This document shows, one piece after another, positions 25,141 through 38,098 of a stretch of 64,000 bases of DNA. The position numbers and the translations under genes were made by a program. The notes beneath the pieces were generated by a model. The model was not told where the DNA came from. It searched no databases and saw nothing but the letters and a program-made list of their open reading frames with translations. The first letter of the stretch is position 1; every line of letters starts with the position of its first letter. The stretch is from Paraeggerthella hongkongensis (GTDB lineage Bacteria > Actinomycetota > Coriobacteriia > Coriobacteriales > Eggerthellaceae): assembly GCF_003340345.1 (NCBI RefSeq), contig NZ_PPTQ01000010.1:1-64000 (forward strand), read 5' to 3'.

Positions 25141-27318
25141 ATGCCAACCGTACGAAGCAACATAGCCTACGCTTACGGCACCTTCATGCGCTCTCATCGA
25201 GCGACGGTTCGTCATATAGTGAAAAGCGTGCTGTCCATTCTTGCCATCGCGTTTCTGCTCGAAACGTTTCTGTTCAACATCAACTACTTCACGTCCGCCG
25301 GGTACAACACCATCTCGCTGAACGACAAGCTTCAGCTGCGCGAAACCACGGACGACCAGTACCAGATCACCGCCGTGAACAACGTGTTGGAGTTCTCGAA
25401 CCTCAACACTGAGGTTCACAACATCTGGCTTAACTTCGACTATCGCCAGCCCGCTCAGGAACTGACCGTCAAAATCCAGTTTACCGACGAGGCGCACCAT
25501 ACGTACTTCGATTCGACCGAGTACACGGTGGGCGTTCCCAACGTTGCGGTGTCCACGTTGTCGGATCAGAGCGAATACATCAACTTGAATACCACGGGCC
25601 TCGTGGGCAATTTGCGCATTGAAGTTGTGGGGGATGAGGTTCAGTATCCCATCAAGCTATCCGATCTGTGCTTGAACGCGCATCATCCTTTCGATTTCAA
25701 CACCACGCGCTTCATCATCACTGCGGGGCTGCTGGCTCTTGCATTTGCGTTTCGGCCTCGCTCCGCCATCTACCGCATGCGCATCGTCGACGAGCCGCGC
25801 ACGTCGAAGGCCGTGATCGTCGCCACCGTGGCCATCGAGATATGTCTGCTCAGCTCATTCCTTTTCCTGGGGTCGAATCTGGTCGGCGTGGCTACCAAGG
25901 ACTACAACAGCGGTTCGTGGGACGGCGTGAGCCTGGTAAACTCCTTCGAAGTGGGCGGCGAAAACGCGCAGCAGTATGCAGAGCTTGCGAAGGCCATGGC
26001 GCGCGGTCAGCTGTACCTTGAAGAGGAGCCGCCTCAGTGGCTGCAGGACATGAGCGACCCGTACGACAAGGGCGCGCGCGACGAAGCGCAGAAGGAGACG
26101 GGGGAGAAGTACCTCTTCGACGTTGCCTATCATGACGGGCATTACTACGTGTATTTCGGCGTGGTTCCGGTTCTGCTGTTCTATCTGCCGTTCTATTTGC
26201 TCACCGGTGCCAACTTCCCAACGGCCATTGGTGTGCTTATTGCGGTGATCGCGTTCGTGCTTGGGTGCTCGGCGCTGCTCGATCGCTTTGCGCGCTACCA
26301 TTTCAAGCGGGTGAGCTTGGGCTTGTACCTGCTTCTGCAGATTCCCTTGGTTATGTGCTGCGGGGTGCTCTACCTGCTGAAATTCCCGACGTTCTATTCG
26401 CTGCCCATCGCGCTGGGCTTGGCGTTCTCGGTATGGGGCCTGTACTTCTGGATGAAGGGGCGCGCGTCTGCTCGTCCGGAGAAGTGGTACCTGCTCGGGT
26501 CGCTTTGCATGGCGCTGGTGGCTGGCTGCCGACCGCAGCTGCTGGTGTTGTCTTTGCTGGCGTTTCCGTTGTTCTGGCGTCCGTACATCACGAAGCGCCG
26601 GTTGTTCTCGCCGCAGGGCGCGCGCGAGTTCGCCTGCCTCATAGGGCCTTACCTGGTGGTGGCTGCCGGTCTGATGGGATACAACTACGCGCGGTTCGGA
26701 TCGCTCACCGACTTCGGGGCCAACTACAACCTTACCGTGAACGACATGACCAAGCGCGGTTGGAACATCGGTCGTTTGGCGCCGGCGCTGTTCGCGTATT
26801 TCCTGCAACCCCCTAGCGTGACGGGCGTGTTTCCATATCTGCAAGCTGCGCCGTTCGACACCACGTACATGGGGCAAACCATCAAGGAAGCCACGTTCGG
26901 CGGCATCTTGGCGTGCCTGCCCGTCTTGTGGGTGCTTCCGTTCGCGAAGCGCATCTTGCAGCTGCGCATCAGCCAGCGCTCGACGCGCACCATTGCGGGC
27001 GTGATTATCGTACTGCTTTTCGGCGGCGTCGTCGTAGCGGTTGCCGATGCCCAGATGGCGGGCATCCTGCAGCGTTACTTCGCCGACTTCAGCTTCATGT
27101 TCTTGGCAGCCGTGGTGCTGCTGGTCTTTATCGTGAACGAGAACCTAACCCCGGGCACCACCACGCAGAACCTGCTTATGAAGGTGCTGCTGACGTTGGT
27201 GACCGTTTCGGTTTTGTACAGCGCGCTGCTGTGCTTCGTGCCGGAGACGGGTTGGTACTCCGACGTGTACGATTGGGCGTACCGGAACATCATCGAAACC
27301 GCGCAGTTCTGGACCTAG
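25141..27318 (+). CDS. Polytopic membrane protein, GT-C glycosyltransferase-like
   Basis: This 725-aa protein has a first helix at about residues 32-50, a roughly 170-residue extracytoplasmic domain, then about ten more membrane helices and short loops. The shape resembles GT-C type membrane glycosyltransferases or large cell-envelope membrane proteins. I see no assigned catalytic motif, so function stays open; several acidic residues lie in the extracytoplasmic loop after the third helix. It is a single gene between adk and nagB. It has no Shine-Dalgarno and a -10 box just upstream. A hairpin at 27336-27358 lies after its stop. Confidence 0.6.
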   Translation: MPTVRSNIAYAYGTFMRSHRATVRHIVKSVLSILAIAFLLETFLFNINYFTSAGYNTISLNDKLQLRETTDDQYQITAVNNVLEFSNLNTEVHNIWLNFDYRQPAQELTVKIQFTDEAHHTYFDSTEYTVGVPNVAVSTLSDQSEYINLNTTGLVGNLRIEVVGDEVQYPIKLSDLCLNAHHPFDFNTTRFIITAGLLALAFAFRPRSAIYRMRIVDEPRTSKAVIVATVAIEICLLSSFLFLGSNLVGVATKDYNSGSWDGVSLVNSFEVGGENAQQYAELAKAMARGQLYLEEEPPQWLQDMSDPYDKGARDEAQKETGEKYLFDVAYHDGHYYVYFGVVPVLLFYLPFYLLTGANFPTAIGVLIAVIAFVLGCSALLDRFARYHFKRVSLGLYLLLQIPLVMCCGVLYLLKFPTFYSLPIALGLAFSVWGLYFWMKGRASARPEKWYLLGSLCMALVAGCRPQLLVLSLLAFPLFWRPYITKRRLFSPQGAREFACLIGPYLVVAAGLMGYNYARFGSLTDFGANYNLTVNDMTKRGWNIGRLAPALFAYFLQPPSVTGVFPYLQAAPFDTTYMGQTIKEATFGGILACLPVLWVLPFAKRILQLRISQRSTRTIAGVIIVLLFGGVVVAVADAQMAGILQRYFADFSFMFLAAVVLLVFIVNENLTPGTTTQNLLMKVLLTLVTVSVLYSALLCFVPETGWYSDVYDWAYRNIIETAQFWT

Positions 27319-27386
27319 CGTCCAGTGACGGCAAGCGCGACGACGTGGAGCCGTCGCGACCCTATTGTCCGAGAAGGGAATGCAGA

Positions 27387-28115
27387 GTGAACATCATCAT
27401 CGCCGACACGTACGAAGAAATGAGCCGCAAAGCAGCCGACGTCATTGCCGATTGCCTCGCGAAGGACCCGTCCTGCGTGCTGGGCTTGGCAACCGGTTCC
27501 ACGCCGATCGGGCTGTATGCCGAGCTGGTGCGCGATTGCGAAGCGGGCAAGATCAGCTTTGCTGACGCGACGACGTTCAACTTGGACGAGTATCGCGGGC
27601 TGGATCCTCGGCATGACCAAAGCTACCGGTACTTTATGCAGCAGAACCTGTTCGACCATGTGAACGTAGACGTTGCACGCACGCACGTGCCCGATGGCTC
27701 CAACCCGGACGCCGATGCTGCGTGCGCGGCGTACGAAGAGGCCATCGCCCAGGCGGGCGGCGTCGACTTGCAGCTTCTGGGCCTGGGCCACAACGGCCAT
27801 ATCGGCTTCAACGAGCCGTGCGACTGCTTCCCGGTTGACACGCACGTGGTCGAACTGACGGAAAGCACCATCCAGGCCAACAGCCGCCTGTTCGGTTCCA
27901 TCGACGAGGTTCCGCGCGAGGCGTACACCATGGGCATCGGCACCATCATGCGCGCCGCCAAGGTGCTGGTAGTGGCGAACGGCGAGGGCAAGGCGCAGAT
28001 CGTGCGCGATGCCTTCTTCGGCCCTGTTACGCCGCAGGTTCCGGCTTCGGTGCTGCAGCTGCATCCGGACGTGACGGTGATCGTCGACAAGGAAGCCGGT
28101 GCGCTGCTCGGGTAG
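27387..28115 (+). CDS. nagB: Glucosamine-6-phosphate deaminase
   Basis: NagB converts glucosamine-6-phosphate to fructose-6-phosphate and ammonia. The 242-aa protein has the family's phosphate loop GLATGSTPIGLY, NLDEYRGLD and the catalytic GLGHNGHIGFNEP. I choose the GTG at 27387, giving MNIIIADTYEEMSR, after AGAAGGGA; the frame is open further upstream inside the previous gene. nagA follows after a terminator, so expression may be separate or partly read through. Confidence 0.95.
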   Translation: MNIIIADTYEEMSRKAADVIADCLAKDPSCVLGLATGSTPIGLYAELVRDCEAGKISFADATTFNLDEYRGLDPRHDQSYRYFMQQNLFDHVNVDVARTHVPDGSNPDADAACAAYEEAIAQAGGVDLQLLGLGHNGHIGFNEPCDCFPVDTHVVELTESTIQANSRLFGSIDEVPREAYTMGIGTIMRAAKVLVVANGEGKAQIVRDAFFGPVTPQVPASVLQLHPDVTVIVDKEAGALLG

Positions 28116-28189
28116 GTTGGACTTCGGGCTGCGGGGCGCTCGCGCTTTTGCGCGAAGGGCTTGCGGCGGCTTGCTCAGTGCATGAAACG

Positions 28190-28226
28190 GGATCTCTGCT
28201 TGCTTGGTGGAGATCCTTTTCTTTTA
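28190..28226 (+). terminator. Terminator between nagB and nagA
   Basis: GGATCTC/GAGATCC (28190-28196 and 28210-28216) is followed by TTTTCTTTT. Confidence 0.75.
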
Positions 28227-28269
28227 CCCCGCGGGTGCGAGAATGGGCGAAAACGGAAAGGATGAAGCT

Positions 28270-29388
28270 ATGATCATAACGGGAGGAAAGGTATTCGACG
28301 GGGCTGGGTTCGTCGAACGCGAGGTTGCCGTGGTCGGCGAGCGATTCGCAGACGCTGCCGCTGGCGATGCTTCGGTTGTCGATGCGACGGGCTGCTACGT
28401 GATCCCCGGTTTGGTGGACGTGCATTTCCACGGATGCAAGGGCCACGACTTCTGCGAAGGGACCGAGGAGGCTTTCGACGTTCTGGCGCGCTACGAGGCC
28501 TCGCGCGGCGTAACGGCCATCTGTCCTGCCACGATGACGTACCCGGAAGAGGTGCTGGCTCCCGTGATGGACTGCGCCGCCGCGTACGAGGCGAAGCCCG
28601 ATGGCGCGGCGCTTGTGGGCATCAACATGGAGGGCCCGTACATCTCTCCGGGCAATATCGGCGCGCAGAATCCGGCGTACCTGCATGGACCCGATGTCGC
28701 TATGTTCGGGCGCTTGCAGGATCGTTCGGGCGGTCTGATCAAGCTGGTGGACGTAGCCCCCGAGGTTCCCGGGGCTTTGGAGTTCATCGAGGCGACGGCT
28801 CCGTCGGTGCGCGTGTCGATCGCTCACACGAAAGCGGATTACGAAGTTGCGCGCGCGGCTATCGAGGCGGGCGCGCGTCACATGACGCACCTATGCAACG
28901 CTATGCCCTCGCTGCATCATCGCGAACCGGGTCCCATCGCTGCGGCGTTCGACTGCCCGGACGTGACGCCCGAGCTGATTGCCGACGGCGTGCATATCCA
29001 TCCCGCTATGGTGCGCTTGCTGTTCGCTGCGTTCGGGGACGATCGCATGATCCTGATCAGCGACTCCATGATGGCCGCGGGCATGCCGGACGGCACGTAC
29101 ACCCTGGGGGGCCAGGACGTTACCGTGCGCGGCAACCGCGCTACGCTTGCCGACGGAACGATTGCGGGATCGAATACCGATCTTATGAGCTGCGTTCGCG
29201 TGGCGGTGAAGGACATGGGCGTATCGTTGGCAAGCGCGGTGAAGGCGGCTTCGGTCAATCCGGCGCGTGCTATCGGCATCGATGACGAGCGAGGCGGCAT
29301 TCAGCCGGGAAAGATCGCCGACGCCGTTGTGCTCGACGAAGATCTCAATGTTCGTCACGTCGTGCTGCGGGGCCGCCTGCTTTCGTAG
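28270..29388 (+). CDS. nagA: N-acetylglucosamine-6-phosphate deacetylase
   Basis: NagA removes acetate from GlcNAc-6-phosphate, the step before NagB. The 372-aa amidohydrolase has the metal-binding HFH at residues 52-54, NMEGPYISP, the histidines in HTKADYE and HLCNAMPSLHHREPG, and the catalytic aspartate in ISDSMMAAG. The start MIITGGKVFDG at 28270 follows GGAAAGGA. With nanA, nanK and nanE at 35-38 kb it completes sialic acid breakdown. Confidence 0.95.
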   Translation: MIITGGKVFDGAGFVEREVAVVGERFADAAAGDASVVDATGCYVIPGLVDVHFHGCKGHDFCEGTEEAFDVLARYEASRGVTAICPATMTYPEEVLAPVMDCAAAYEAKPDGAALVGINMEGPYISPGNIGAQNPAYLHGPDVAMFGRLQDRSGGLIKLVDVAPEVPGALEFIEATAPSVRVSIAHTKADYEVARAAIEAGARHMTHLCNAMPSLHHREPGPIAAAFDCPDVTPELIADGVHIHPAMVRLLFAAFGDDRMILISDSMMAAGMPDGTYTLGGQDVTVRGNRATLADGTIAGSNTDLMSCVRVAVKDMGVSLASAVKAASVNPARAIGIDDERGGIQPGKIADAVVLDEDLNVRHVVLRGRLLS

Positions 29389-29547: not shown

Positions 29548-30504
29548 CTAGCCGATCACCTCGGCCGAGGGAATGTGCTGGCGGTAGAGCTCGTAGAACG
29601 TGCGGGAGTCGAGCGCGTCGATGAACGATTGGCTGACGGTGAGGCAGGCATCCGCGTCGTCTTGAGTCGACGCGTGCTCGAGCGACTGCTGCGGACATAC
29701 TACAAGGTCGCCGTTGGCCGCGTAGAAGTCGAGCAGTTCCTCGGATAGCAACTCGCGGCATACGCGGCGCGCAACGCTCTCTTCGACTGACGTGCGCGCG
29801 CAAAAGTACGATGGCAGCAATACGGGTCCCTCGTGCGACGCTTCGAAGAACGAGTCGGTCCCGTCAGCCCGCAAGGCGTACAGCGAGGGGACCAAGGCGA
29901 AATCCGCTTCTTTGGTGCGGGCGGCCTTGAACGCTCCGATGGGCATCGCAGTAACGGTGCAGCGTTGCAGCAGCTCTTCCGCAACGGCCTTGCCGTAGCG
30001 CTCCCATACGGATTTCACCAGGATCTTTCCAGCCGAGTTGTCGATTCCCCCGAACGCTACGCGCGCGTTGCGAACCAGGGTGGGCAGAGGATCGTTCGGG
30101 ATGGGCGATCCGCCGTACAGCACAAGCGGAATGGCAACTACGGGAAGCAGCTGGTCGGTGCGCTTTACAGCCTGCACGACGGCAGTGCTTTTGAGCGGGA
30201 GCCAGGTTGCGCAGTCGTGCAGAGGCCCCAGCGCATCGAACACCTTTGCGCACTCGAACACCTCCAGATCGGCCGACACGATAAGGTCGGGCATCTGCGC
30301 TCCGTCGCGTGCGAGGTAGGCGGCCATGTGCTCGTCGTATCCAAGTCCGAAAAAACGCACGACCAGATGTATGCCTTCGCTTCGCAGGCGTTCTTGCAGG
30401 TTCGCAAGGTAGGCTTTCTCGAAGTTGTGCAGAATGCAGATGTGGTTCCAGTACAGCGTAACGGTTACGGGCTCTTTGCTGGAGCGTTCGTTCGATTCGT
30501 TCAT
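29548..30504 (-). CDS. Solute-binding-fold protein without signal peptide
   Basis: The 318-aa protein resembles a type II periplasmic binding protein, with alternating alpha/beta pattern and segments such as MPDLIVSADLEVFE and LPVVAIPLVLYGG. It has no signal peptide or lipobox and begins MNESNERSSKEPVTVTLYWN, so it should stay in the cytosol. It is the third gene of a coupled operon behind the soluble ABC ATPase (ATGA overlap). It has a good AGGAG site 10 nt upstream. Ligand and role are unknown. A metal or cofactor donor is one possibility, based only on the neighbouring GTPase. Confidence 0.6.
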   Translation of the reverse strand: MNESNERSSKEPVTVTLYWNHICILHNFEKAYLANLQERLRSEGIHLVVRFFGLGYDEHMAAYLARDGAQMPDLIVSADLEVFECAKVFDALGPLHDCATWLPLKSTAVVQAVKRTDQLLPVVAIPLVLYGGSPIPNDPLPTLVRNARVAFGGIDNSAGKILVKSVWERYGKAVAEELLQRCTVTAMPIGAFKAARTKEADFALVPSLYALRADGTDSFFEASHEGPVLLPSYFCARTSVEESVARRVCRELLSEELLDFYAANGDLVVCPQQSLEHASTQDDADACLTVSQSFIDALDSRTFYELYRQHIPSAEVIG

Positions 30505-31244
30505 GCGAGTGCTTCTCCTGTTCTCAGGGCGCTTTGGAGCGCCTTGGTTTGACGGTAGGCTTGATGAAGGCGGGCCTCCAGCTGCTCTTCGGCAGTTGTG
30601 CGGGTGCGGACGCAAGAGACGGCTCCACCCGCCATGACGATGCGCGTATCGGCCAGAAGCGCCGTATGCGGGTCATGCGTGACCACCAGCACGAGCTTGC
30701 GCGCATCAAGGAGGGCTTCGAACGCCGCCTCCTTGTCGATTCCTGCATTCTCTATCTCGTCGACCAGGACGACGGGGCTGTTGCAAACAAGCGCGATGTC
30801 GGCAATCATGAGCGCTCTGGTTTGTCCGCCTGATAGCAGGTTGAGGTTGCAGGCGGCGTCGATGCGCTCGGGCGTAATGCGGTTTGCCAGCTCGAGCACT
30901 TCGGGCGCGCTTGCGCTTGAGGCGCGACAGGCGCGATGCAGCTCGATGAACTGGTCAACGGAAACGTCCAAGACGAAGCGCATGTTTTGGCTCAGATGCG
31001 CAATGAGCGATCCGGAGTAGGAGCGACGTTGCTCTTTTCGAGGGGCGTCGCCGTCTACAAGGACGCTTCGCTTGGTGGGGGAGTCTCCTTGGACAAGCTG
31101 TTCGATGTCCTTGATGAAGCGGGTTTTGCCCGATCCGGTGTTGCCGACGATGGCGTACAGCCCGCCTGTGTGCAATTCGATGCGGTCGAACCGTTCGGGC
31201 TTTTCGTGCTTGTCGGTTCCGGGAAGCACGGTTATCTCATGCAT
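30501..31244 (-). CDS. Solo ABC-type ATPase
   Basis: This 247-aa ATPase has Walker A GNTGSGKT (34-41), Q-loop Q86, an altered but recognisable signature LSGGQTRALMI (137-147), Walker B VVLVDE (158-163) and H190. No permease gene is in its operon, and both neighbours are soluble. It may therefore power assembly or conformational work, not transport. It could instead pair with the permease at 33970, but that already has its own ATPase. It overlaps the GTPase gene by 13 nt and the next gene by ATGA. Confidence 0.75.
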   Translation of the reverse strand: MHEITVLPGTDKHEKPERFDRIELHTGGLYAIVGNTGSGKTRFIKDIEQLVQGDSPTKRSVLVDGDAPRKEQRRSYSGSLIAHLSQNMRFVLDVSVDQFIELHRACRASSASAPEVLELANRITPERIDAACNLNLLSGGQTRALMIADIALVCNSPVVLVDEIENAGIDKEAAFEALLDARKLVLVVTHDPHTALLADTRIVMAGGAVSCVRTRTTAEEQLEARLHQAYRQTKALQSALRTGEALA

Positions 31245-32008
31245 GGACTGCCGCCTTCCTGGTAAGCGGCCAGCGGCGCTCTTTGGCATGACGCGCTTTT
31301 GCCCGATGCCGCCGGTTGGTCTTCGAAGGTCATTTTGCCCACGATGCCCTGTTGAAACGCCGATCCCACCCGGCGTTCTCCCACGCAATACGAGCAAACT
31401 CCGGACGGCATCGTGTGGCGCAGCGTGTCTCCCTCAAGCGTTGGCGGAGGTGCTTGCTCCATGATCCAGTCGCACAATTCGTCGACTCCGTAGCCGGCAA
31501 GCCCGTCGATGGCGAACACGGCGGCATGCGGATTGATGCGCGCGATGTTCGCGCAGACGATCTCCCGCTCTGCCTGGGACACCATGTCGGTTTTCGACAC
31601 CACGACGAAGTCCGCCTGCGTAAGCATGGGCCCTAGATGCTCGGGCGCCTTGCAGCTGGCCGTCCCGTCCACCACGCATCCTGCCAACATGTTTCGAGTG
31701 GCAGGGGAGCAGCGGTGGCAAAGGCCGGCGGTTTCTATGAGCAGGCATGAAGCGTTTTGGTTGCGCGACCACTCCCAGAGGTCGGCAAGGTTGGAGACCA
31801 GAAAATGGTCGGGGCATATATCGCCGCTGATTCCCGATACAGCAGGCAAGCCGAGTCCTGCGAACACGTGACGGTCTTCATCCGATATGCAATCGATCTT
31901 GCACAGGGCGGGCGGACAGCCCCGTTGCGCCAACGTGGGCGCCGCCCATCGAAGAACGGCGGTTTTTCCGACTGCCGATGATCCGCTGAACAGAACTACC
32001 TTGTCCAT
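31232..32008 (-). CDS. HypB/UreG-like metallochaperone GTPase
   Basis: The 258-aa protein is a SIMIBI-class GTPase related in layout to the nickel-insertion GTPases HypB and UreG. It has Walker A GSSAVGKT (residues 9-16) and the guanine motif SKTD (138-141) in place of NKxD. Cysteine pairs are many: C36/C40, C97-x2-C100 and C205-x2-C208. These suggest metal binding or transfer. It starts with ATG after GGGAGG and is the first gene of its operon. The target enzyme is not encoded nearby. Confidence 0.72.
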   Translation of the reverse strand: MDKVVLFSGSSAVGKTAVLRWAAPTLAQRGCPPALCKIDCISDEDRHVFAGLGLPAVSGISGDICPDHFLVSNLADLWEWSRNQNASCLLIETAGLCHRCSPATRNMLAGCVVDGTASCKAPEHLGPMLTQADFVVVSKTDMVSQAEREIVCANIARINPHAAVFAIDGLAGYGVDELCDWIMEQAPPPTLEGDTLRHTMPSGVCSYCVGERRVGSAFQQGIVGKMTFEDQPAASGKSASCQRAPLAAYQEGGSPCMR

Positions 32009-32123
32009 GCATCCTCCCGTCTTTCATTGCTCGGTTTCGGTCTAAGGCGCAACGCTTGCGCTCTACGATGGCGGTTTCCTCCAAGATCGTCAGTATCAAG
32101 TGAGACGCTTTCGCTAAAAAAGT

Positions 32124-32153
32124 TTTCCAAAGTTAACTATTTTGTGGTGTAAT
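32124..32153 (+). promoter_or_regulatory. Putative promoter of the Crp/Fnr gene
   Basis: TTTCCA at 32124-32129 and TGTAAT at 32148-32153 with an 18-bp spacer form a weak promoter. The spacer holds the palindrome AGTTAACT at 32131-32138, a possible operator. The 197-nt divergent region 32009-32205 must also drive the GTPase operon. Confidence 0.4.
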
Positions 32154-32205
32154 GAGCCTTGGTAGGTGCCGTTTTGCTGAACGTCGGAAGGAGGTGAGTC
32201 ATACG

Positions 32206-32826
32206 GTGGCTGACATTGCGAAAGCGCTGGAGCACTCCGAGCTGTTGCGCGATGTTCGAATCGATCCGCAGCGCGTGCGTGCGAAACGGTTGCGCACCGG
32301 CCAGATGGTGGTTGATCGAGCGGGCGACGTTTCCTGCGTCGGATTGGTCCTGCGAGGCGTGATCGACGTGTACAGCGTTGCGTTCGACGGGTGCGAAATC
32401 AGACTGTCTTCCCTGTACGAAGGGGAGATGTTCGGAATATGCAATCTGTTTGCCCCTAACGACTTGACAACGGTGCTGCGCAGCCGCAAAGGCTCGGACG
32501 TGCTGTTCATTCCCAAAGAGTACTTGATCGAATTGATGAACAACGACGGCGATCTGATGTCACGCTACCTGGTGCTCTGCAACAGCAAGATTCAGTTCCT
32601 TTTGCGCCGCATCGAAGAGCTGACCATGCAGACGTCGCGCATGAAGCTGCTGAGTTATCTGCGCGATCGCGCGACATGCGACGGACTGGTCATGTTTGAG
32701 GGAACTCGCGAAGAAATGGCTCGTTATCTGGGAATAAGCAGAGCGACGCTCTTTCGCGAAATCGCTCACCTGAAACGCGAGGGAAGCGTGGTTTCCCGCG
32801 GAAACGATCTGTACGTGCGAACGTGA
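32206..32826 (+). CDS. Crp/Fnr-family transcription regulator
   Basis: The 206-aa protein has a cyclic-nucleotide-binding-like beta barrel (about 20-125), a dimer helix and a winged HTH with TREEMARYLGISRATLFREI. No N-terminal Fe-S cysteine cluster as in FNR is seen. The start is GTG at 32206 after a strong AAGGAGGTGA. The position, between a divergent GTPase operon and an ABC importer, suggests it controls one or both. The effector is unknown. Confidence 0.85.
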   Translation: MADIAKALEHSELLRDVRIDPQRVRAKRLRTGQMVVDRAGDVSCVGLVLRGVIDVYSVAFDGCEIRLSSLYEGEMFGICNLFAPNDLTTVLRSRKGSDVLFIPKEYLIELMNNDGDLMSRYLVLCNSKIQFLLRRIEELTMQTSRMKLLSYLRDRATCDGLVMFEGTREEMARYLGISRATLFREIAHLKREGSVVSRGNDLYVRT

Positions 32827-32919: not shown

Positions 32920-33960
32920 ATGGTACTGAAGAAGGTTTGGGCGTTTGCGGCCGCTATGGCCCTGAGCGCCTTTATGCTGGCAAGCTGCGCTTCGGGCGGC
33001 GCCTCCGCGCCCTCGGCGGGAACCGAAGAAGGCGCTTCTGCGGAAGCAGCTGCTCCGGTTGACGTGCGCGCGGTTGCGCTGAAGGGCCCCACGGCTATGG
33101 GCTTGGTGAAGTTCATGGACCAGGTTGACAAAAGCGAGGCGACCGACAACAACTATTCGTTCGATATCGCTGCGTCGGTTGACGAGGTAGTTCCCAAGAT
33201 AGCCAAGGGCGAGGTCGACATCGCAGCCGTGCCCGCGAACCTGGCATCGGTTCTGTACAACAACACCAACGGCGAGGTGCGAGTTCTGGCCATCAATACG
33301 CTGGGCATCCTGTACATCTGCGAAACCGGAAACTCCGTGCAGACCGCAGCCGATCTGAAGGGCAAGACCATTTACGCCGCGGGCAAGGGCGCAACGCCGG
33401 AGTACGCTCTTTCCTATATCCTGGAAAGCAATGGGCTTGTGCCTGGTCAAGATGTGACCATCGAATGGAAGAGCGAGCATGCCGAATGCATCGCAGCTAT
33501 GGCTCAGAACCCCGATGCTATCGCCATGCTTCCCCAGCCCTTTGTGGCGGCGGCCCAGGCGAAGAACGCCGACATTCGCGTTGCGCTTGACCTGACCAAG
33601 GAATGGGACGCGCTGCAAAAAGATGCAAGCGCCCCGAGCGCGCTGGTAACCGGCGTAGCGGTTGCGCGTGCGTCGTTCATCGAGGAGAACCCCCAGGCGG
33701 TGCAGGCGTTCATGGAGCATTACCGCGAGTCGGTTGATTTCGTCAACGCCAACGTCGACCAGGCCGCCGCTTTGGTGGGATCGTACGACATCGTCCCCGA
33801 GGGCGTTGCGAAGAAGGCTTTGCCGGGGTGCAACATCGTGTTTTTGAGCGGCTCCGACATGAAGGACAAGCTGTCCGGCTACCTGAACGTGCTGTCCCAG
33901 CAAAACCCCCAGTCGGTTGGCGGCTCGCTTCCCGCTGACGACTTCTACTACGGGGCGTAA
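32920..33960 (+). CDS. NitT/TauT-type ABC substrate-binding lipoprotein
   Basis: The 346-aa protein is an extracytoplasmic solute receptor of the NitT/TauT type. The signal peptide MVLKKVWAFAAAMALSAFML ends in LASC, with the lipidated cysteine at residue 23. The binding domain includes VDIAAVPANLASVLYN. The start at 32920 follows GAAAGAGG; an upstream in-frame ATG at 32836 adds a hydrophilic extension before the signal and is unlikely. Permease and ATPase follow. The ligand is unknown. Confidence 0.85.
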   Translation: MVLKKVWAFAAAMALSAFMLASCASGGASAPSAGTEEGASAEAAAPVDVRAVALKGPTAMGLVKFMDQVDKSEATDNNYSFDIAASVDEVVPKIAKGEVDIAAVPANLASVLYNNTNGEVRVLAINTLGILYICETGNSVQTAADLKGKTIYAAGKGATPEYALSYILESNGLVPGQDVTIEWKSEHAECIAAMAQNPDAIAMLPQPFVAAAQAKNADIRVALDLTKEWDALQKDASAPSALVTGVAVARASFIEENPQAVQAFMEHYRESVDFVNANVDQAAALVGSYDIVPEGVAKKALPGCNIVFLSGSDMKDKLSGYLNVLSQQNPQSVGGSLPADDFYYGA

Positions 33961-33969
33961 GGGGCTTAC

Positions 33970-34722
33970 GTGACGGGCAAAGCGCTCGGTATCGTATTCC
34001 CGGTGGCGTTTTGGCTGATCGTGTGGCAAGTTGCCAGCATGGCGATAGCCCAGGAGGTGCTGTTAGTGTCTCCTGTGGCTGTTGCCATGCGTTTGGCGGA
34101 GCTGGTGCAGACCGTGGATTTCTGGGGCTCGATAGCCGTATCCCTTTCTCGTATTGCCGTAGGGTTTTTGCTGGCTATGGTGCTGGGCACCTTGCTGGCG
34201 GCGCTGTCCTCCCGCTTTCAGTGGGTGCGTCGCTTGCTGGCGCCGCTTGTGCAGGCCGTCAAGGCCGTGCCTGTGGCTTCGTTCGTCATCCTGGTGCTCA
34301 TTTGGGTGTCATCTGCCAACCTGTCGATCGTTATCTCGTTTCTGATGGTGTTTCCCCTGGTGTACGCTAATGTTCTGGAGGGTATCCGGCAGGTTGATCC
34401 GCAGCTTTTGGAAATGGCCCAGGTGTTTGACCTAAGCCCTCTTGCACGGTTGCGCTACCTGTACTGCTCTCAAGTGCTGCCGTACTTTCAGGCAGCAAGC
34501 TCGCTTGCTCTTGGCATGTGTTGGAAGGCGGGTATTGCCGCAGAGGTCATCGGGCTTCCCAGTTTCTCCATCGGCGAGCGTCTCTACGATGCGAAAGTCT
34601 ACCTGAACACCCCTGATCTGTTCGCATGGACGGTTGTCATCGTCCTCATCAGCCTGGTGTTCGAGCGGTCGTTCGCGAAGCTGCTTGCACAGGCCGTGGC
34701 GAAGGTGGAGGAGATGCGATGA
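33970..34722 (+). CDS. ABC importer permease
   Basis: This 250-aa permease has six membrane helices and the cytosolic coupling segment DPQLLEMAQVFDLSPLARLR, matching the EAA loop of the SsuC/TauC class. The start is GTG at 33970, 9 nt after the binding-protein gene, behind AAGGGG. Its stop overlaps the ATPase start (ATGA). Confidence 0.88.
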   Translation: MTGKALGIVFPVAFWLIVWQVASMAIAQEVLLVSPVAVAMRLAELVQTVDFWGSIAVSLSRIAVGFLLAMVLGTLLAALSSRFQWVRRLLAPLVQAVKAVPVASFVILVLIWVSSANLSIVISFLMVFPLVYANVLEGIRQVDPQLLEMAQVFDLSPLARLRYLYCSQVLPYFQAASSLALGMCWKAGIAAEVIGLPSFSIGERLYDAKVYLNTPDLFAWTVVIVLISLVFERSFAKLLAQAVAKVEEMR

Positions 34723-35333
34723 GGTTTGTCGACGTGACGAAGTCCTATGGGAACACCGTTGTCATGCAAGGATTTTCGGCGGATCTTCAAGACGGTGCGG
34801 TTCACTGTATTCTAGGGCCGTCGGGGTGCGGGAAAACCACCTTTCTCAGGTTGGTGCTTGGGCTTGAGCAACCCGATCAAGGGCTTGTCGAGAAGGCGGA
34901 CGATGCTCGATGCGTTGCCGTGTTCCAAGAGGACAGGCTCTGTGAAAACCTCAGCATTTCCGCGAACATACGCTTGCCGCACGGACGGCTTGATCCGCAG
35001 GCGCGGGAGGTGCTGCGTTTCGATATGGAACGTTTGCTGGACAAGGTGGGCTTGGCCGGATTGGCTGGACGTCCGGTGCATGCGCTTTCGGGCGGCATGA
35101 AAAGACGGGTCGCTTTGCTGCGAGCCGTCATGGCGCCAAGCAGCGTTATCGTGTTCGACGAGCCCCTTAAGGGCCTTGACGGCGAAACGAAGCGCCGCGT
35201 TATGGAAGTTCTCGAACCCTTGCTCGAAGCAAAGACCGTGCTTTGGGTGACGCATGATCCGGCTGATCAGGCGTACTTCGAATCCCCTTACGTATGGACC
35301 ATGTCTTCCGGAGCCTTGCGAAGGCGAGGGTGA
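34719..35333 (+). CDS. ABC importer ATPase
   Basis: The 204-aa ATPase of the importer has Walker A GPSGCGKT (33-40), VFQED at the Q-loop, signature LSGGMKRRVALLRA, Walker B VIVFDEP and VTHD. It is a little short for the SsuB/TauB class (usually about 250 aa), lacking the C-terminal extension. It overlaps the permease gene by 4 nt. Confidence 0.88.
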   Translation: MRFVDVTKSYGNTVVMQGFSADLQDGAVHCILGPSGCGKTTFLRLVLGLEQPDQGLVEKADDARCVAVFQEDRLCENLSISANIRLPHGRLDPQAREVLRFDMERLLDKVGLAGLAGRPVHALSGGMKRRVALLRAVMAPSSVIVFDEPLKGLDGETKRRVMEVLEPLLEAKTVLWVTHDPADQAYFESPYVWTMSSGALRRRG

Positions 35334-35419: not shown

Positions 35420-36094
35420 TTACGCGATTGCGTTCGCGAACCAGGTGGTGATGCTTGTCGGGTGCGTGATGGCGGTCCCGACGACGATGGCGAACGCTCC
35501 GGCGTCCATGGCTGCCTTCGCGTCGTCGGTGGTGTGGATGCGGCCTTCGCAGAACACCGGCACGTCGCCTGCCGCGGCAACGGCTTCCTTCAGGAAGTCC
35601 AGATCGGGGCCGTCGGTTTTCGCGAGGCCTCCCGGCACGTATCCGGCAAGCGTGGTGGATACGATGTCACAGCCCGCTTCGAGCGCGCGATGGACGTCTG
35701 CCATGCAGGAGCAATCGGCCATGACCAGCGTTTCCCCGCGCAGGGCTTCGACGGTTTCCTTGAACGTGCGGCCGTCGGGGCGCGGTCGATCGGTTGCGTC
35801 AAGGGCAACCACGTCGGATCCGGCGCTTATGCAGGCGCGCGCATGGCGCAACGTGGGCGTGATGTAGACGCCTTCGTGCCCCTCTTTCCACAGGCCGATC
35901 ACGGGGATCTCGACTCGTCCCTTGATAGCCGCGATGTCGGACAGGCCCTGGCAGCGGATAGCGGCCGCACCGCCCAGTTCGGCGGCGCGGGCGATCTGGG
36001 CCATGGTTTCGGGGTGGCGCATAGGCTCGCCCATATATGCCTGGCAGCTTACGATGAGCTTGCCGCGAAGCGATTCGATAAGCGGATTGATCAC
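35420..36094 (-). CDS. nanE: N-acetylmannosamine-6-phosphate 2-epimerase
   Basis: NanE converts ManNAc-6-phosphate to GlcNAc-6-phosphate. The 224-aa TIM-barrel protein begins LIVSCQAYMGEPMRHPE after a short lead and includes the phosphate-binding FCEGRIHT and VVGTAITHP. The start is GTG, overlapping the nanK stop (GTGA). It is the last gene of the nan operon. Confidence 0.93.
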   Translation of the reverse strand: MINPLIESLRGKLIVSCQAYMGEPMRHPETMAQIARAAELGGAAAIRCQGLSDIAAIKGRVEIPVIGLWKEGHEGVYITPTLRHARACISAGSDVVALDATDRPRPDGRTFKETVEALRGETLVMADCSCMADVHRALEAGCDIVSTTLAGYVPGGLAKTDGPDLDFLKEAVAAAGDVPVFCEGRIHTTDDAKAAMDAGAFAIVVGTAITHPTSITTWFANAIA

Positions 36095-37041
36095 AAACGT
36101 CCTTTCAAGGTGTCCAGCAGGTACTCGGCCGCCCCGATAAGGGGCGCGTTGTCTTTGAGCGTTGCGTCAACGATGGGCAAGGCATGCATCACGGCGGGGG
36201 CCTGTCGCTCGAACGCCGCTTGCACGGCGGCGCGCCACGCGGGCCCGGCGTTGCAGACCGACCCCGAAAGCACCACCAGCTCGGGGTCGAGCAGGTCCGT
36301 CCAGGTGGCGATAGCTTCTCCCAAGGCCGAACCCGCTTCTTCGATGATGCGGCGGGCAAGCTCTTCTCCCTGCAAGGCGCGCTGCGCGATCTCGCCGCCG
36401 GTCACGGGGTCTCCTCCCGCAGCTGCATAGCGGCGCTCGATGCCGCTGCCAGCGGCAATCGATTCCAAATCGCTGGCGTTTCCGCAGGTACGTGGCTCGC
36501 CCGAAGCGTCGGGGCAGGGGGTGCGTCCCAGTTCGCCGGCGAATCCGTGGGCGCCCAGCAGCACGCGCCCATGAGCGACGATGCCGCCGCCCAAGCCGGT
36601 TCCTGCGGCAACCACCAAGCAGGTTTGGGCTCCCCGGGCCGCCCCCCAACGCGCTTCGCCCAAGGCGTGCGCTTTCACATCGTTGAGGACCGCCGTGGGA
36701 AGACCGTGAGCGTGCGCAAGGCGGTCGGCGACGGGCTGTCCGGTCCAGCCGGGCATAAGCTCGTTGGCGTAAGCGATGGATCCGGTGTGCGCATCCACGC
36801 ATCCGGCCGTGCCCACGCCAATGCCCGCAACGGGCCCTGCGGCGCTGGCCAGCACATCGCCGACCAGGTCGCAGAGCGTGTCGAGCACCGCGACGCCTCC
36901 GCGGGCCGCGTTCGTTGGCACGCTGCGGCGTCTTTCGATGACGGGTTCGGCGGCAGGGGAGCTGTAATGTGCAAGCGCCCCTGCCATTTTCGTGCCGCCG
37001 ACGTCGACGACGGCTACGGTGCACGGATACTCGACGTTCAT
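36091..37041 (-). CDS. nanK: ROK-family N-acetylmannosamine kinase
   Basis: NanK phosphorylates ManNAc. The 316-aa ROK protein has the phosphate motif VDVGGTKMAG and AGTGLGGGIV. The family's zinc motif CxCGxxGCxE is degenerate here, reading RTCGNASDLES, and the preceding conserved histidine is phenylalanine (HGFAGELG). It may thus lack zinc. The start MNVEYPC at 37041 follows nanA by 8 nt. Assignment rests on fold and on the nanA and nanE neighbours; a generic sugar kinase is the alternative. Confidence 0.83.
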   Translation of the reverse strand: MNVEYPCTVAVVDVGGTKMAGALAHYSSPAAEPVIERRRSVPTNAARGGVAVLDTLCDLVGDVLASAAGPVAGIGVGTAGCVDAHTGSIAYANELMPGWTGQPVADRLAHAHGLPTAVLNDVKAHALGEARWGAARGAQTCLVVAAGTGLGGGIVAHGRVLLGAHGFAGELGRTPCPDASGEPRTCGNASDLESIAAGSGIERRYAAAGGDPVTGGEIAQRALQGEELARRIIEEAGSALGEAIATWTDLLDPELVVLSGSVCNAGPAWRAAVQAAFERQAPAVMHALPIVDATLKDNAPLIGAAEYLLDTLKGRL

Positions 37042-37049
37042 GCAGCAGC

Positions 37050-37994
37050 CTATTTGCGCACGGGCGCGTCGCCGTCCATAAGGCCGGCGCGCTTGAGCAC
37101 GTTGACGATGGTCTCCACGTCTTCGCCTTCCAGGGGCTGGACGGGCTCGCGCATCTGGTTCGTGTTGAATACTTCCATCTGCCACAAAGCCGTCTTGAAC
37201 GCGCCCACGCCGGCACCGAAGCCCACGGTGGCCTTCACCTGACGGGTCAGGAACATGAGGCGAGCCAGGTGATCCTGCAGCTCCTTCACGCGGTTCCAGT
37301 CGCCAGCCTGAGCGGCGCGCCACTGCTCGACGTAGCTTACCGGGTCGAGGTTCGCCAGGCCCGGCACCGATCCGTCGGCGCCGGCCAGGTACGCGCCGTC
37401 GACGCAGACCTCGTGGCCGGTCAGCAGCTGCAGCGGATGGCCGGCGTCCTCGTTCTCGAGGCACAGCCAGCGGAACGACACGTCGTCGCCGGAGGAGTCC
37501 TTGACGCCCTGCAGCACGCCGTCGGTGCCCAAGCGCACAAGCATCGTGGGATCGAGCTTGGTGTGCACGCATACGGGCAGGTCGTAGGCGAACAGCGGCA
37601 GATCGGTCTGCTCGCGGATGGCGCGGAAGTGACGCTCGACTTCCTTCGGGCCGCCCAGCGCGTAGAAGGGAGCGGTGGCAACCAGCGCATCGACGCCGTA
37701 GCCGGCGGCGCGCTTGGCCTGGTCGACCACGCGCAGGGTTTCCATGTCGATGATGCCCGCCAGCACCGGCACGCGGCCGTGCACCATGGCCACGGCTTCC
37801 TGCAGCACGTGGTAGCGCTGCGCGTCGGTCAGGAAGGCGACCTCGCCCGAGGATCCCAAGAAGAACAGGCCGTCGACGCCTGCCTCGATCATGCGGTTGA
37901 TGGAGCGCTCAAGCGCTTCCAGGTCGAGCTGTCGCTTCTCGGTCAGCGGGATGACGACCGGGGGGATTACGCCGCGAAACGGTGAATCAGTCAT
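37050..37994 (-). CDS. nanA: N-acetylneuraminate lyase
   Basis: NanA splits N-acetylneuraminate into ManNAc and pyruvate. The 314-aa DapA-fold protein has GSSGE, the tyrosine motif AYDLPV and the Schiff-base lysine K165 in GVKDSSGD. Related DapA-family aldolases share these, so the specific call depends on the adjoining nanK and nanE. The start MTDSPFRGVIPP at 37994 follows AGAGG. It is first in the operon, behind the promoter at 38037-38065. Confidence 0.87.
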   Translation of the reverse strand: MTDSPFRGVIPPVVIPLTEKRQLDLEALERSINRMIEAGVDGLFFLGSSGEVAFLTDAQRYHVLQEAVAMVHGRVPVLAGIIDMETLRVVDQAKRAAGYGVDALVATAPFYALGGPKEVERHFRAIREQTDLPLFAYDLPVCVHTKLDPTMLVRLGTDGVLQGVKDSSGDDVSFRWLCLENEDAGHPLQLLTGHEVCVDGAYLAGADGSVPGLANLDPVSYVEQWRAAQAGDWNRVKELQDHLARLMFLTRQVKATVGFGAGVGAFKTALWQMEVFNTNQMREPVQPLEGEDVETIVNVLKRAGLMDGDAPVRK

Positions 37995-38036
37995 GGGTTT
38001 AAAGCCTCTTTTCCGTGTCTGTATGCAAACGGTAAA

Positions 38037-38065
38037 AGAATAGACCGCTCTTGTAGGCACGTCAA
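38037..38065 (-). promoter_or_regulatory. Promoter of the nan operon
   Basis: On the minus strand TTGACG (38060-38065), a 17-bp spacer and TATTCT (38037-38042) form a good housekeeping promoter about 40 nt before nanA. Confidence 0.7.
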
Positions 38066-38098
38066 CGAACAAGGGTTGGTTGCCACAGGAAAATCGCC

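Follow-up and report, generated by a model that had tools for sequence, protein, structure and literature searches.

A conserved GTPase, solo ABC ATPase and leaderless binding protein module, homologous to a vanadium nitrogenase-associated operon, with its own importer and regulator in a gut bacterial clade

Three overlapping genes in Paraeggerthella hongkongensis, coding for a HypB/UreG-class GTPase, a solo ABC ATPase and a leaderless periplasmic-binding-fold protein, constitute a real and deeply conserved module that is already known beside vanadium nitrogenase; the version described here belongs to a distinct clade and has its own importer and regulator (Table 1; the window is the whole stretch of 64,000 nucleotides that was analyzed). 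We see about an even chance that the locus is a metal-acquisition and trafficking unit, in which an importer feeds an intracellular carrier for the delivery of a metal oxyanion or chelate. The gene set has been described only once, as an operon within the vanadium-nitrogenase regulon, and the route taken by vanadium and other rare metals from importer to cofactor assembly is a gap on which the set bears. The gut clade has the set without nitrogenase and with its own importer, regulator and operator, so that both cargo and function could be tested in gut bacteria that can be cultured, independently of nitrogen fixation. Further, as a metallochaperone design, the combination of a cytosolic ferric-binding-fold protein and two NTPases would be out of the ordinary.

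Table 1. Features of the locus in the window and, in the last four lines, hybrid cluster protein genes near the module in other genomes
Feature	Position	Strand	Remarks
HypB/UreG-class GTPase	31232..32008	-	258 aa
Solo ABC ATPase	30501..31244	-	247 aa; all ATPase motifs; no fused permease
Leaderless periplasmic-binding-fold protein	29548..30504	-	318 aa; predicted ferric-binding-protein (FbpA) fold
Operator-like palindrome GTATCAAGTGAGAC	32093..32106	.	consensus GTCTCA-N2-TGAGAC; between the two divergent transcripts
Crp/Fnr-family regulator	32152..32826	+	longest ORF; true start perhaps further downstream
SsuA/NMT1-like lipoprotein substrate-binding protein, signal peptide	32920..33960	+	longest ORF from 32836
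Importer permease, BPD_transp_1, SsuC/SaoP-like	33970..34722	+	
Importer ATPase, SsuB-like	34719..35333	+	longest ORF from 34626
Hybrid cluster protein gene, locus L082	9601..11334		
Hybrid cluster protein gene, locus L087	14242..16023		
Hybrid cluster protein gene, locus L140	4705..6555		
Hybrid cluster protein gene, locus L145	10284..11924		

The three genes are transcribed from the minus strand in the order GTPase, ABC ATPase, binding protein, with an overlap of 13 bases between the first two and of 4 bases (ATGA) between the last two. Relative to a Paraeggerthella hongkongensis genome taken for comparison, the GTPase and the binding protein are 95-96% identical (96% for the GTPase alone), and the dN/dS values of 0.08 for the GTPase, 0.10 for the ABC ATPase and 0.13 for the binding protein indicate that each of them is a genuine gene maintained by purifying selection. 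Gene calls, dN/dS and profiles agree in this respect with the first-pass annotation, which had read this stretch as overlapping genes for a cysteine-rich HypB/UreG-like GTPase, an ABC ATPase with no permease and a binding-fold protein with no leader.

The GTPase is recognized by the CobW/HypB/UreG superfamily model PF02492 with 31.4 bits (Pfam gathering cut-off, 20.7). It scores 40.4 bits against the HypB model TIGR00073 and 14 bits against the UreG model TIGR00101, under their equivalog cut-offs of 121.2 and 204.2, and belongs to neither family; with both models missed this widely, the earlier statement that the set matches no known hydrogenase or urease maturation operon stands. The protein has a P-loop (G9..GKT16) and a TKxD-type motif (residues 138-141); an alignment of 35 GTPase sequences shows the P-loop to be invariant, along with the metal-site-like residues C65-P66-D67-H68, C97-x-R-C100 and C205-x-Y-C208. 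The closest solved structures are those of UreG and HypB, the CPDH of the module GTPase being aligned on the CPH motif of UreG. This CPH motif and the cysteines of HypB bind nickel.

The ABC ATPase belongs to the family defined by PF00005 (E 8e-13) and retains intact Walker A, LSGGQ, Walker B and H-loop motifs. The importers linked to the module carry their own ATPase, and the solo protein is additional to it; by its sequence it might or might not pair with an importer permease. A role in anti-phage defense was considered and rejected: the PADLOC matches are weak and limited to the ABC domain, as expected from any ABC ATPase. In a Coriobacteriales relative, the solo ABC protein bears an unassigned N-terminal extension (L024 3096-4154).

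The binding protein of the window has no Pfam or NCBIfam match, even to SBP_bac_6 (PF13343), the model matched by the sister-clade binding proteins; the two binding-protein families are joined by profile comparison (hhalign; probability 97%, E 1e-11). A sequence search of the window-clade protein against the PDB likewise gave no match, but a fold search with its AlphaFold2 model (pLDDT 90) aligned it with the ferric-binding protein 1mrp (Z 21.6 over 282 residues), and on this predicted structure it is an FbpA-like protein of the type 2 periplasmic binding fold. Thiamin- and PLP-binding proteins were also among the fold matches. The window protein and 41 aligned relatives all lack a signal peptide, in contrast to the adjoining SsuA-like protein with its lipoprotein signal, and the proposal that all three module proteins are cytosolic is borne out. 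A Fusobacterium version of the binding protein is fused to a DUF1858 domain (L027 8820-9998).

A scan of 84,980 species genomes recovered 80 module loci, nearly all of which combine the GTPase with the solo ABC ATPase, mostly together with a leaderless binding protein from one of two related families. The module is conserved in at least six bacterial phyla, among them Actinomycetota, Bacillota, Spirochaetota, Fusobacteriota, Pseudomonadota and Verrucomicrobiota. In one archaeal and one Chloroflexota relative, a FecB-like protein occupies the place of the binding protein. Within the phylum of the window the module is rare, being present in 1 of 296 sampled genomes. The GTPase tree splits with full support into clade A (the window, Slackia, Flavonifractor, Lachnospiraceae, Erysipelotrichaceae, Fusibacter and one spirochaete) and clade B (the vanadium-nitrogenase alphaproteobacteria, Paenibacillus, Verrucomicrobiota, Fusobacteriota, Acetobacterium, Gordonibacter and others). 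A pooled scan of neighbors (55 proteins) revealed no strong further recurrent partner.

The first-pass annotation also held that the set has no transporter, and this has to be abandoned: a complete importer, preceded by a Crp-type regulator, begins about 900 bases from the start of the GTPase gene, across a shared promoter region, and is divergently transcribed. Of the 33 clade-A loci, the window counted, 27 have an importer beside the module (SsuABC-like in 24, FecBCE-like in 3), from which it appears that importer types interchange beside one module. A Crp-type regulator with a lipoprotein SBP, permease and ATPase diverges from the module in 24 of the 33. At L041, L047 and L053, the divergent arm comprises genes for Crp, a NifH-like protein and two nitrogenase-component-1-like proteins, along with FecB/FecC/FecE-type genes. 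Among the remaining clade-A loci without an importer, three stop at a contig edge. One genome, that of Flavonifractor sp. An82, has two module-importer loci (L033 and L035), with the palindrome in each. Amino-sugar genes flank the locus in the window (26913-29388 and 35420-38072); these ORFs, which are glucosamine-6-phosphate-deaminase-like, amidohydrolase (NagA-like), NanE (PF04131), sugar-kinase-like and dihydrodipicolinate-synthase-like, probably form a sialic acid/N-acetylglucosamine pathway.

The palindrome in the divergent intergenic region recurs with at most two mismatches in 22 of 24 clade loci, with a mean of 1.2 mismatches as against 4.6 after shuffling. Both arms are altered in a Slackia relative (GTCCCA-N2-TGGGAC), a paired change that fits the expectation for a protein-binding site. 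Allowing at most one mismatch, the window genome has it only here and at one other site, and this near-uniqueness suggests that the Crp-type regulator probably acts locally. A wider palindrome regulon was rejected, as other genomic sites are overall no commoner than those of a reversed control. Most loci also have a second palindrome (GTTAGC-N4-GCTAAC), which is degenerate in the window.

As to the enzymes that the module might serve, the alphaproteobacterial version adjoins vnfD (972.9 bits; cut-off, 823), vnfK and a NifX-like gene, with a nitroreductase, DUF364 and a PhnD-like importer also nearby. This nitrogenase linkage of the sister clade is a direct observation from gene neighborhoods, and there the module would serve vanadium nitrogenase. 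Nitrogenase-family alpha subunits were found in 31 of 50 module genomes searched, 17 being of the alternative type, including those of all nine alphaproteobacteria, and were absent from the clade-A genomes, the Fusobacteriota and two marine spirochaetes in that set. The vanadium nitrogenase model TIGR01284 was matched by none of the searched clade-A genomes, among them that of P. hongkongensis. About half of the clade-A genomes are devoid of any nitrogenase-type protein, and some others have nitrogenase-like enzymes. In a sample of 299 Lachnospiraceae genomes drawn irrespective of the module, it was present in 4 of 9 diazotrophs versus 10 of 290 others (p 3e-4). Gordonibacter sp. 28C (L097, genome G385) has nitrogenase-family proteins whose scores against the alternative alpha model (326 and 284 bits) are like those of NifD/NifE in other diazotrophs, and is, by these scores, possibly a nitrogen-fixing member of the Eggerthellaceae. 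Downstream of the module in Fusobacterium gastrosuis (L071 11650-16687) are FecB-FecC-FecE-NifH-like genes and one for a protein distantly like nitrogenase component 1.

The window genome lacks nitrogenase and has, on contig C51, a separate operon (G000:C51, L116 6928-13356) coding for FecB, FecC, FecE, two nitrogenase-component-1-like proteins and a NifH-like protein; this operon does not contain the palindrome. Related operons occur in several Coriobacteriia and Lachnospiraceae. The same genome has a hybrid cluster protein on C50, and neither this gene nor the C51 operon is linked to the module. The nitrogenase-like pair was rejected as a strict client: only about half of clade A has it, and its enrichment in Lachnospiraceae is weak (8/14 versus 86/285, p 0.04). 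In four clade-B loci, from two Lachnospiraceae and two spirochaetes, the module is near a hybrid cluster protein (Prismane, E 2e-157) and a Crp-type gene, a setting suggestive of nitrosative stress or Fe-S chemistry; the gene set is not mentioned in the HcpR-regulon papers. A link to selenium was also discarded: NF041053 and the Sao models matched weakly, with NF041053 unmatched in the window's own genome, and the ORF of one relative with an in-frame TGA is complete without it.

Taking together the conserved gene set, the leaderless state and predicted fold of the binding protein, the linked importer and regulator, and the metal-site-like residues, we infer a metal cargo, its hand-over between proteins and a part for the ABC ATPase. 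The Crp-type regulator would locally control the whole unit, and the lipoprotein-permease-ATPase importer would take up a metal oxyanion or metal chelate. In the cytosol, the leaderless FbpA-fold protein would bind the imported species. The GTPase, in which CPDH, CxxC and C-terminal CxxC are invariant, would then accept the metal and hand it on in a GTP-controlled step. As for the solo ABC ATPase, it might work in solution as a conformational motor or scaffold, not as the motor of a transporter. Of the original notion of an undescribed metal- or cofactor-handling machine with an intracellular carrier, the machine and carrier are retained, metal handling being the most plausible version, and the words "undescribed" and "no transporter" are dropped. 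The metal could differ between the clades. Counting against such a unit are the lack of nitrogenase-type proteins in about half of the clade-A genomes and the four loci near a hybrid cluster protein; SsuA-like binding proteins, moreover, often carry organic ligands. It is a long shot that, in the nitrogenase-less gut anaerobes, the chain of import, carrier and GTPase brings vanadium or another rare metal oxyanion to an unrecognized metalloenzyme; if so, the vanadium-nitrogenase module would be one branch of a general trafficking system.

The candidate clients adjacent to the module, i.e., V-nitrogenase, nitrogenase-like pairs with NifH and hybrid cluster protein, together with the modeled ferric-binding fold, would also suit a factor that repairs or assembles complex Fe-S metalloenzymes (nitrogenases, nitrogenase-like reductases and hybrid cluster protein) and that might supply iron or rebuild clusters, for example, after nitric oxide damage. 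This we consider unlikely: most loci are without any such client, and the nitrogenase-like pair is distant from the module in the window genome and missing from about half of the clade.

A small probability attaches to an intracellular sensor, wherein the leaderless binding protein would sense the import substrate and, via the GTPase and ABC ATPase, tune the Crp-type regulator or the importer. The Crp gene and the operator-like palindrome do sit between module and importer, and the leaderless VnfZ with VnfA3 offers a precedent by analogy; however, VnfZ is of a different, PhnD-like family, two NTPases are superfluous for sensing, and many sister-clade loci have no linked regulator. Slimmer still is the prospect of a system that takes up and processes a cofactor or nutrient other than a metal (a pterin, or a thiamine- or sulfonate-like compound), with the cytosolic binding protein as the carrier of this compound. 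To this the SsuA/NMT1 class of the importer SBP, the fold matches to thiamin- and PLP-binding proteins, and the action on pterin- or flavin-like compounds proposed for DUF364 (PMC2954201) would be congenial, but the membership of the GTPase in the metal-binding HypB/UreG class, with invariant Cys/His, and the FecBCE and TonB siderophore-type systems that accompany the module in relatives speak for a metal.

Among known systems, the nickel-delivery GTPases HypB and UreG share the GTPase class and, for UreG, the motif with which CPDH is aligned; the module protein differs in falling far under both models' cut-offs, in its extra CxxC and C-terminal CSYC, and in having no linked hydrogenase or urease genes. 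With FbpA-type ferric-binding proteins, the binding protein has its fold in common over the aligned length, whereas it lacks a signal peptide, is only about 14% identical, has invariant residues of its own (e.g., W19, C23 and D79) and has no Fbp-type permease beside it. VnfZ, a leaderless and probably cytosolic paralog of the vanadate SBP that interacts with the regulator VnfA3, is comparable as a cytosol-kept solute-binding protein tied to metal handling, but is PhnD-like, partners a sigma-54 activator and comes without a GTPase or ABC ATPase (PMC9542535). For the PhnD-like RPA1385, binding of vanadate has been shown (PMC3223731), and DUF364, which is adjacent to the module in several loci, has been linked to the transport of Fe, W, V and Mo (PMC2954201).

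The closest counterpart, and the reason that the set cannot be called undescribed, is the Azotobacter vinelandii operon Avin_02430-02420-02410-02400 (SBP-GTPase-ABC-nitroreductase), reported in 2022 as VnfA1-dependent and conserved with vanadium nitrogenase (PMC9542535); the literature searched yielded no description of a biochemical role for its SBP-GTPase-ABC set (Avin_02430-02410). Like the window, it combines an SBP, a nickel-binding-type GTPase and an ABC ATP-binding protein, and the homology of the three genes is drawn through the alphaproteobacterial relatives, which keep the nitroreductase and lie beside vnfDK. The SBP gene comes first in the Azotobacter operon and last in the window set, and where Azotobacter has sigma-54/VnfA1 control and a vanadium nitrogenase, the window has no nitrogenase, a Crp-type regulator and an importer of its own.
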